In this document: one piece after another, positions 527 to 5,565 of the stretch | Position numbering within the stretch: position 1 is the first letter of the stretch | How the letters are laid out: the number at the start of each line of letters is the position of its first letter | NCBI GenBank assembly: GCA_002923195.1 | Contig: BDTH01000055.1 | Coordinates: forward strand, 1-34,418 | Direction: 5' to 3' | Length of the DNA stretch: 34,418 nucleotides | DNA from: a bacterium BMS3Abin15 | Lineage (GTDB): Bacteria > Patescibacteriota > Minisyncoccia > Moranbacterales > 2-12-FULL-40-10 | Made by a program: the position numbers and the translations under genes | The notes under the pieces: model-generated | What the model was told of the DNA's origin: nothing | What the model saw: the letters and a program-made list of their open reading frames with translations, nothing else | The model's database searches: none

Positions 527-625
527 ACCCCGTTAGAAATATGTTCATAACGTGCTGCAACTGGATAAAAATTTAAATAGTTCTCACAATTAGATTTCGT
601 GTTCTACGCAAATTTCTAACGGGGT
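527..625. repeat. Inverted repeat pair, 14-bp perfect arms accccgttagaaat / atttctaacggggt
   Basis: Arms at 527-540 and 612-625, between the divergent genes at 270-470(-) and 718-927(+). Confidence 0.75.
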
Positions 626-717
626 TGACCTATTGCTTTAAAGGGACTAAGCTTATATATTAATTATAGGCTAAAACAGCATAAAAATACAAATAAATAT
701 AAATTGGGAGGATTAAT

Positions 718-927
718 ATGAATTTAGGCACGTTGTCGTATGATAAATTAAGAATGCCGATGGACGATATTGCTGCAAGAAATGAGGAGATTAAAAGACG
801 TATAGCTCAGGGTTTTGGTGCTCCACTTGGATTTAACTGTAAAGTGTGCGAATTCGTGCCTTGCACCACGACGGAAGCCGCAACCCATATTATTGAACAC
901 GAACATAAAGGAGAAAAGCCAGCATAA
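718..927 (+). CDS. Small hypothetical protein with a CxxC motif and His-rich C-terminus
   Basis: 69-aa ORF with SD gggagg about 6 nt upstream; contains NCKVCEF and HIIEHEH. Confidence 0.7.
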   Translation: MNLGTLSYDKLRMPMDDIAARNEEIKRRIAQGFGAPLGFNCKVCEFVPCTTTEAATHIIEHEHKGEKPA

Positions 928-945
928 ATAACAGCTACTGTCAAC

Positions 946-976
946 AACCCCATATATTATATGGGGTTTACTTTTT
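946..976 (+). terminator. Rho-independent terminator
   Basis: aaccccatat-att-atatggggtt followed by a T-rich stretch. Confidence 0.7.
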
Positions 977-981
977 TAAAG

Positions 982-1010
982 TTGACTCTAGTCCTTAAGC
1001 AGAGTAGGAT
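982..1010 (+). promoter_or_regulatory. Sigma70-like promoter for prfA-prmC
   Basis: TTGACT (982-987), N17, TAGGAT (1005-1010), just upstream of the prfA ATG at 1031. Confidence 0.5.
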
Positions 1011-1030
1011 TATGTGTTAAAATATTAAGT

Positions 1031-2092
1031 ATGAAAAGCCAAATTGACGAGATAAAAAAAGAATACGAAGATATTCAAAAACAACTCGGTAATCCCGAGG
1101 TTGTTTCTGATACTCAGAAGATGGCTAAACTGGGAAAAAGGCAGGCAGAATTGGAAGATACCGTTAATCTAATTAACGAGCTGGAAAAGACAGAAAAGGA
1201 AATGAAAGAAAACGCTGAGATTATTAATACTGAAAAAGACGCCGAGGTAAAACAAATGGCGATGGATGAAAATGTTAAGTTATCCCAGAAAAAAGAAGAA
1301 CTAGGAAAAGAATTGGAAGTTAAATTAATTCCCAAAGATCCCAATGATTCAAAAGATGTCATTGTCGAAATTCGCGCTGGCGCTGGTGGAGACGAATCAG
1401 CCCTTTTTGCGGCTAACTTGTTTAGAATGTATTCTAAATTTGCTGAAAAGAGCGGCTGGAAAACTTCTATTATGAACTCTAGCAGAATCGGGATTGGCGG
1501 ATTTAAAGAAGTAATTTTTGAAATAAGCGGAACGGATGTTTTTTCTAAGATGAAACATGAATCTGGGGTTCATCGGGTTCAAAGAGTGCCTGAAACGGAA
1601 AAAATGGGAAGAGTGCACACTTCTACTGCCACCGTGGCTGTGCTTCCAGAAGCTGAAGAAGTGGAGCTTAAAATTGATCCTAAAGATTTGCGCATTGATA
1701 CTTACGCCTCCTCCGGCCCTGGCGGACAGTCGGTTAACACCACTAACAGCGCGGTGAGAATTACCCACATTCCCACTGATACGGTAGTATCCTGCCAAGA
1801 TGAAAAATCCCAGTTAAAAAACAGGGATAAGGCCATGAAGGTCCTGCGATCCCGTCTGCTTCAAGCTGAGCAGGAAAAACAAGCCAAAGAACTGGGAGAT
1901 GCCAGGCGAAGTCAGATTGGAACTGGCGACCGGAGTGAAAAAATTAGAACATATAACTTTCCGCAAGATCGCATAACTGACCACAGGATTAAAAAGAATT
2001 GGAGTAATATTGAAGGAATACTGGATGGTGATTTTAATGAAATAACTGAAGCATTGCAAGAAGAAGATCAGAAAATCAAAATGTCAAAATGA
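1031..2092 (+). CDS. prfA: Peptide chain release factor 1
   Basis: 353 aa; [16 protein letters not shown] release-factor GGQ motif, full-length RF1 architecture. Confidence 0.96.
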
Positions 2093-3124: not shown

Positions 3125-3235
3125 CTATTTTTTCTTCTTCCTTTTTTTAGCTTTTTTCTTAGTAGCTCTTTTCTTGGTAGCTTTCTTTTTAGTTCCTTTT
3201 TTCTTAGCAGCTTTCTTTTTTTTCTTTTTTGCCAT
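3125..3235 (-). CDS. 36-aa Lys/Ala-rich basic protein (histone H1-like tail composition)
   Basis: ATG at 3233-3235 to TAG at 3125-3127: MAKKKKKKAAKKKGTKKKATKKRATKKKAKKRKKKK. SD aaggaggtg upstream. Below the ORF-track size cutoff. Confidence 0.8.
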   Translation of the reverse strand: MAKKKKKKAAKKKGTKKKATKKRATKKKAKKRKKKK

Positions 3236-3678
3236 TTTACTTCACCTCCTTCTATTGTTTCTTCCTTCGACATATCGCCGAAGAAAAAAATTATTAAAAC
3301 TTATTTTTACCTGCCCCGCGATCTCACCTTGGCGGGGTTTTGAACTTTCTATATTTTTATTACAACAAGAACTTTGCAAAATTTCAAGTTTATATTCTAA
3401 TTATACAACATATTTTTTAAAAATCAATGCAAAAAAGTTATCCACAGCGCAAAAATAGAAAAAATTTCTATTTTTTAAATTCTAAAAGCTACACCCTAAA
3501 TTATAAACAATATCAAGATTCAAATTTAAAAAATTTAAAACGTTTTTAGTATTGAGATTTATAATTTTATATTTGCTTAGTATTTCGTGCTTAGGATTTC
3601 GAGTTTATAAAAATTTTGCATGCCAAGCCTGCGAAATTTTTAGTATTTATTACACCAAAAATATATACTTTTGTCTAG

Positions 3679-3707: not shown

Positions 3708-3854
3708 TGTTAGACAGGTCACAGAATCGATTACCCAATAATCAATATCGGATCGATCTGTATTCGAGCTTCAATCAGAAGCCGTACTTTAAAAAGTAAC
3801 TTCCCCGTTTTTTTCAATAAAGATCGGGGTAAACTAGAAAGGAAGGTGACGTAA

Positions 3855-4515: not shown

Positions 4516-4620
4516 CCCCGCCATTTCAGCGGGACAGGCAGAAACAAAAAAATCCGCTGTTCTTTGTTCTAGTAATATAAATTACTTTTCGATAGCCCCG
4601 CCATTTCAGCGGGACAGGCA
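4516..4620. repeat. Two exact 25-bp hairpin repeats ccccgccatttcagcgggacaggca
   Basis: Copies at 4516-4540 and 4596-4620, each with a cccgc/gcggg stem. Confidence 0.8.
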
Positions 4621-4623
4621 AAA

Positions 4624-4648: not shown

Positions 4649-4746
4649 TTTATGAAAATAAAAATAAAAGACCCCCTCAAACTTCTGCAAGATTTTGCAA
4701 AAATTCAAGAGGGTCAAAGTGTCAAAGAATCAAAGATTCAAAAGAT

Positions 4747-5398
4747 CTAAGATTCAGAGGAATTGCGGGAGAACACCCGGCGGCCATAGTACCGCTCACG
4801 CGGAGTCCCAACGGAGCAAGCATCCACGCTCCAGCCGACGCCACCCCAGTCGCAGCGGACCGCGCCCAGCACACCGTTTACATCGTGGATATAGAAAATA
4901 TTGGCGTATCCGTTAGTAGGCAGTGCGCCTTTTTCGCCATTCGGCTGCATTTCCATAAGGGCGAACATTTCAGCGAGGGTGGTTTCCGCTTTTTTTTCTC
5001 CGCCCAGTTCGGCGATGATTGGCTTATCAGCCGAACTTTTCCGCAGTTTGTGGTAGCGGAGAGTGGTTTCAGGAATTGCTTTTTCTGTTTTGCCAAGGAA
5101 ATTTTTCCGGAAGTCATCGCCAAGGTAAGAGATTTTCACTTTCGTCTTCCTGCTTGTGTCGACAATGAAGTTATCCTTGGCAACGAACTTTTTGGTGATT
5201 GCCGGAATAATGATTGTGCCAATAAATTCCAGCGATTTAATCTGAACGATTTTGGCATTACCAAGCACAACCTGTCGAACATGGGTAAGGACATTGCCCT
5301 CGCTCAGCTTTTTTATTTCAGCGTTTGTCCAATCACCGCGTCTGAACGCGGATTTTAATTCTCCTGCTTGGTCAACATCGAGCATTAAATCACTCATA
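4747..5398 (-). CDS. Hypothetical protein with C-terminal C-type-lectin/DGR-variable-protein-like domain
   Basis: ORF 4747-5511; the likely start is MSDLMLDVDQAGEL with SD aaggagg (plus cctcctt). C-terminus AVRCDWGGVGWSVDACSVGTPRERYYGRRVFSRNSSES resembles DGR-type variable domains. Confidence 0.65.
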
Positions 5399-5565
5399 GT
5401 TGCCTCCTTTTGCAACAGTGTTTTTGCAAACATGTTGCTATTTTTGAAATTTATACTGCTAAAAGCAGTATTTGTTAAGTTGCAATCGCCCGTTTTAAGA
5501 CGATGCTCCATTATATATCAAAACGCGGAAAAAGTCAATAGTTGGTTTTTGGCTTAAATACGGCA

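Follow-up and report, generated by a model that had tools for sequence, protein, structure and literature searches.

The question raised by this locus is whether the unusual 3' end of a gene on contig C55 has been rewritten by a diversity-generating retroelement (DGR) and, if so, where the template and the reverse transcriptase (RT) reside. Unless another contig or locus is named, positions refer to the window, that is, the whole 34,418-nt stretch of C55 that was analyzed. The first-pass annotation of this DNA had proposed that the C-terminus of the encoded protein is the variable segment of a DGR target and that, as neither an RT nor a template repeat (TR) was visible in the window, the gene could be a remote target. 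Based on sequence comparisons, we consider the gene at 4747-5397 (-) to be a remote target of a DGR carried by contig C35 of this CPR genome, with a probability of roughly 0.88. The features on which the analysis relies are the following:

4747-5397, stop codon included (-): target (variable) protein gene, 216 aa; open frame, ribosome-binding site, homologs with the same Met start
5412-5438 (-): predicted leader hairpin GCAAC-AT-GTTT-GCAA-AAAC-ACT-GTTGC, present in the window and in most genes with the N-terminal module
5403-5407 (-): ribosome-binding site GGAGG, from sequence
5242-5397 (-): N-terminal module, residues 1-52, common to other CPR DGR targets and recurring in genomes of the class
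4876-5238 (-): invariant part of the C-terminal domain, 5' of the variable repeat; 80% DNA identity to the C35 gene, high-confidence model
4763-4875 (-): variable repeat (VR), 113 nt aligned to the C35 TR; 85% identity, mismatches at TR adenines
4759-4780 (-): IMH-like VR 3' end GTGTTCTCCCGCAATTCC, the corresponding stretch of the TR being CGAAAC; putative function by analogy to BPP-1
4670-4715 (-): long stem-loop predicted 47 nt 3' of the VR, with a stem of 21 bp, a loop of 4 nt and a T-run behind it

A variable repeat and its template

The target reading frame begins with the ATG at 5397, terminates at 4747 and ends in AVRCDWGGVGWSVDACSVGTPRERYYGRRVFSRNSSES. An in-frame ATG at 5511 is an unlikely start, because GGAGG precedes the ATG at 5397 and homologs start with MSD or MSE. 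The VR is C-terminal and ends five codons before the stop. That the end of the gene is GC-rich and adenine-poor compared with the rest, as had been noticed at first pass, is fully supported: the sense strand of 4763-4875 contains 8.0% A and 69.9% G+C, against 33.3% and 44.4% in the remaining reading frame. This is the G+C maximum among all 113-nt segments of the 34 kb, and 0.026% of such segments (both strands) are equally A-poor. Since the TR itself has 58% G+C and 19.5% A, the composition of the VR comes partly from the template and, for the remainder, from replaced adenines.

The whole genome (G000) is a fragmented MAG of 1.22 Mb in 114 contigs, 89% complete, and has three RT genes, on C35, C29 and C68. 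Named relatives (Kerfeldbacteria, Yanofskybacteria) and the genome size point to its CPR affiliation. Neither an RT nor a TR was found in the 34-kb window, in agreement with the first-pass annotation. The genome-wide search that it had suggested, for a DGR RT and a repeat differing at A positions, uncovered both on C35 together with an Avd gene. The order of the C35 element is a second target gene (220 aa), the TR, Avd on the opposite strand and the RT. The RT matches PF00078 (E 2.5e-26) and phrog_1423 (E 1.5e-101) and has the DGR-type motifs GNLTSQ and YADD. Avd matches bAvd PF22296 (E 1.3e-13) and PHROG Avd (E 3.9e-20); its match to NCBIfam DivGenRetAVD (E 1.3e-17) scores 64 bits against a cut-off of 80. 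All three components, TR, RT and Avd, are intact. When the genome was searched by BLAST with this TR, the matches were the TR, the VRs of C35 and of the window, and a third VR on C76; the only match that is a TR is thus the one on C35. The remote location of the target is thus borne out at the level of contigs, the gene being on C55 and the TR, Avd and RT on C35.

We also considered the other two RTs. C29 carries a second DGR (L002: VR 3217-3337, TR 2747-2867, RT 1294-2346, Avd 2369-2692) with 22/29 mismatches at adenines; its VR is of a different class, and the contig ends within its target. It was rejected as the driver of the window VR, as no VR other than its own matches its TR. The C68 RT was likewise rejected: the nearest models are those of the Drt4/Drt3b antiviral RTs, with scores below their cut-offs, and C68 has no Avd match. 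The C68 gene (L003) lies at 565-2070 (-) and codes for 501 aa.

The window VR differs from the TR at 17/113 sites, and 14 of the 17 differences are at TR adenines, which make up 22/113 sites (P = 6e-10). The proposal that template adenines were replaced by mutagenic retrohoming is thereby borne out. When the VR ends were trimmed (the first 9 nt and the last 3 nt, the latter being the TR/VR end difference), 13/15 mismatches were at adenines (P 3e-10) and two non-adenine differences remained. The C35 VR behaves similarly, with 11 of 12 mismatches at adenines (P 1.3e-8). Adenine-biased mismatches between paralogs, also anticipated at first pass, were seen: 12/15 differences between the window VR and the C35 VR are on TR adenines, whereas body differences, compared over the whole 3' region, show no adenine bias (P 0.45). 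Off adenines, the window VR matches the TR at 88/91 sites. The exceptions are T>G at the 5' edge, G>A and T>C; the 5'-edge G is also present in the C76 copy and is probably ancestral. These two or three differences may mean that some time has passed since the last homing. In 15 codons of the TR an adenine can alter the encoded residue, which corresponds to about 10^12 protein variants, and stop codons are impossible.

Proposed homing in trans and the alternatives

C55, C35 and C76 agree in G+C (0.37-0.38) and in their tetranucleotide profiles (r 0.98-0.99), so they likely come from one organism. A three-way alignment of the target genes gives 79.6% identity between window and C35 in the body; the third codon positions of these two genes agree at 70/113 sites in the body versus 36/37 in the VR (Fisher P 8e-6). 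The 100 nt after the VR, which are non-coding except for the last codons and missing from the TR, are identical at 97/98 positions. Given this near-identity of the VR and the 3' flank against a diverged body, we infer that the region was homogenised with C35 after the divergence of the genes. As the flank cannot be copied from the TR, ordinary recombination or constraint must also have acted. The third copy, on C76 (L011, 491-1138 (+)), is a decayed sister, a frameshifted pseudogene with 83% identity to the window body, 76/91 agreement between VR and TR and a diverged 3' flank. In its 5' leader and N-terminus, the window gene matches C76, not C35.

Under the proposed explanation, the DGR RT, together with Avd, would copy RNA of the C35 TR and misincorporate nucleotides at template adenines, and the cDNA would overwrite the 3' end of genes bearing a matching VR and 3' flank; the flank may serve as the homing address. 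The C35 target would be hit in cis and the window gene in trans. The product would be a cellular protein, possibly with a binding role, in which a short N-terminal domain of modular type precedes a diversified C-terminal one. The AlphaFold model of the C-terminal domain (163 aa) is of high confidence. C-type lectins rank first in a PDB structure search, although none is significant (best E 0.28, TM about 0.3); a structure search against viral models gave nothing significant. The diversified domain would probably be a compact C-type-lectin-like binding surface.

Homologs of the target protein occur in 33/190 genomes searched, the own genome included. Seven relatives have a local target-TR pair, with VR-TR mismatches at adenines in 20/22 (G021), 20/21 (G108), 17/18 (G100), 13/14 (G187), 12/13 (G030), 11/12 (G163) and 10/19 (G150) cases. 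An RT is present beside the pair in 7/7 and an antisense Avd in 6/7 (all but G163). Trans homing in other relatives is unsupported: neither the G096 nor the G129 assembly contains any TR that matches its orphan targets, and in G058, G114 and G120 no match to the VRs was found beside the RTs. The single-contig, 98% complete genome G188 (C1) has three target-like genes (L054, L062, L063) and no detectable RT related to that of C35; these genes are candidate orphan or abandoned targets. One further homolog (L084, JAGFXI010000189.1; 46%) is on a stretch without a related RT, in a bin labelled Deltaproteobacteria (CTSoil_058), and is a candidate for transfer or for a mis-binned CPR contig.

How else might the window gene be explained? 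Pfam, PHROG and NCBIfam give no family for the protein, and one could imagine an ordinary G+C-rich, Gly/Arg-rich C-terminus that resembles DGR targets by chance. We regard this as extremely improbable, considering the TR, RT, Avd and adenine-biased differences in the own genome and in relatives; chance composition was rejected once the matching TR had been found. A TR located elsewhere may possibly be missing from the fragmented assembly, but none is within the 34-kb contig. A more substantial challenge is that the VR was diversified in cis at C35 and then moved, together with the 3' flank, by homologous recombination, so that the window gene was never homed into directly. The near-identical flank, absent from the TR, argues for such a transfer, as does body identity that climbs toward the VR, from 73% to 86%. 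However, similar hairpins follow the VR in 12/12 related target genes folded, and the flank hairpin, kept at all related targets, may be selected as a homing element; moreover, the two VRs differ at 12 TR-adenine sites, so C35 would have to have been rewritten at least once afterwards. Recombination without direct homing seems rather unlikely, and direct homing in trans would be the simplest reading compared with moving a VR already mutated at C35.

It may also be that the window gene was homed into in the past and is now fixed. The two or three non-adenine differences from the TR, the decay of the C76 sister to a pseudogene and the known orphan targets without a TR in relatives are all consistent with this. 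On the other hand, the reading frame, the ribosome-binding site, the VR end and the 3' hairpin of the window gene are intact, and so is the machinery on C35. A fixed relic is therefore an alternative to be taken seriously but, on balance, a doubtful one; as a remote target of the C35 DGR, the window gene may be active at present.

Relation to known systems

DGRs of CPR/Patescibacteria were reportedly described by Paul et al. 2017, as cited in Roux et al. 2021. Their RTs form clade 2 of Roux et al. 2021 (PMC8144416). They resemble the C35 system in the RT, TR, Avd, C-terminal VR of a modular target, adenine-specific mutation and CPR host. By the authors' own account, the method of that survey would not detect remote targets (PMC8144416), while the window target is on another contig. 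Surveys that search only beside the RT thus miss such genes.

Among the closest counterparts of the remote arrangement are DGRs 4 and 5 of Thiohalocapsa PB-PSB1 (PMC10907252), in which targets without a local TR or RT have VRs matching a distant TR off adenines, and the N-termini vary between targets of one TR, as they do here. That system belongs to RT clade 5 and to another host; its VRs are perfect off adenines and its population diversity was measured, whereas the window VR has three off-adenine differences and comes from one MAG. Trichodesmium (PMC8867640) is similar in that one genome has DGRs and dispersed target genes, but it is cyanobacterial and its variation was measured with reads. 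As publications already exist on DGRs of CPR bacteria (PMC8144416) and on targets diversified remotely or in trans (PMC10907252, PMC8867640), the window gene adds to known systems. Base composition alone can point to a remote DGR target, as in this case. The pattern left by diversification in trans, with the VR and 3' flank nearly identical off adenines and the remainder diverged, could be used to find others.

The N-terminal module and predicted RNA hairpins

The N-terminal module was detected in 21/387 genomes of the class, many of them with an adjoining adenine-biased TR. We examined 21 loci, of which 18, the window included, were readable. An adenine-biased TR is located just downstream in eight reading frames (L100, L103, L105, L109-L113), and in five of these all TR/VR mismatches are at adenines. 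L118 adjoins an RT and Avd; several other loci have no local TR. Targets with the module at L085 (Kerfeldbacteria), L086 and L087 (Yanofskybacteria) have 11/11, 22/23 and 17/21 mismatches at adenines, respectively, L087 and L100 being apparently the same locus. Because proteins with this module carry several different variable ends, the window protein looks chimeric, with the N-terminus of one kind of DGR target joined to another VR class. The module matched no family above the cut-off in the libraries searched: the similarity to Pfam Peptidase_M19 is weak (best E 0.0019, in 2/8 members) and that of the window sequence (0.11) is below the cut-off. PDB sequence searches with the target profile and with the module profile gave nothing relevant.

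The leader hairpin is predicted just 5' of the ribosome-binding site in the window, L060, L061, L066, L085, L086, L087 and C76, with z about -2 in most. Its stems contain paired changes (GTAAC/GTTAC in L066, GCGAC/GTCGC in L086, inner stem GTTT/AAAC versus GTTC/GAAC), and a scan for the exact pattern over 132 genomes of the order gave a single locus, a known gene with the module. It is possibly a regulatory leader. Another predicted stem-loop, ATTTCTCYYSC-loop-GSGRGAGTTTT, occurs about 10-25 nt after 11/13 TRs of different VR classes, including L010 (about 3815-3836 (-)) and ten other loci. On C35 it overlaps the end of the antisense Avd gene. This is a candidate terminator or RNA element for RT-Avd. 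In the DGR literature compared, which is less than the full literature, we found no description of the module, the leader hairpin or the TR stem-loop. We tentatively propose, at somewhat less than even odds, that CPR bacteria have a portable kit: the 52-aa module and leader hairpin would be swapped among variable-domain types, the VR and 3' flank would act as a mobile homing address, and one TR and RT would diversify dispersed genes in trans. The common module provides a handle by which more DGR targets could be sought among CPR bacteria.

The ends of the repeats invite comparison with Bordetella phage BPP-1 (mtd/avd/brt; PMC3240598, PMC12875486), which also has adenine mutagenesis and an Avd partner. 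VRs of related loci mostly end in CGCAATTCC and their TRs in CGAAAC or similar, a contrast that looks like the IMH/IMH* difference of BPP-1; by the same analogy, the TR/VR 3'-end mismatch would be of IMH type and the hairpin downstream of the VR its counterpart. BPP-1 differs in being phage-borne and acting in cis, with an 8-bp hairpin stem close to the VR. The window hairpin (4670-4715) is far longer, terminator-like and more distant from the VR, and Avd on C35 is antisense to the TR and RT. This hairpin could possibly be a homing element. Further downstream of the target gene, CCCCGCCATTTCAGCGGGACAGGC is present in two copies (4518-4541 and 4598-4621) and resembles a short dispersed repeat.
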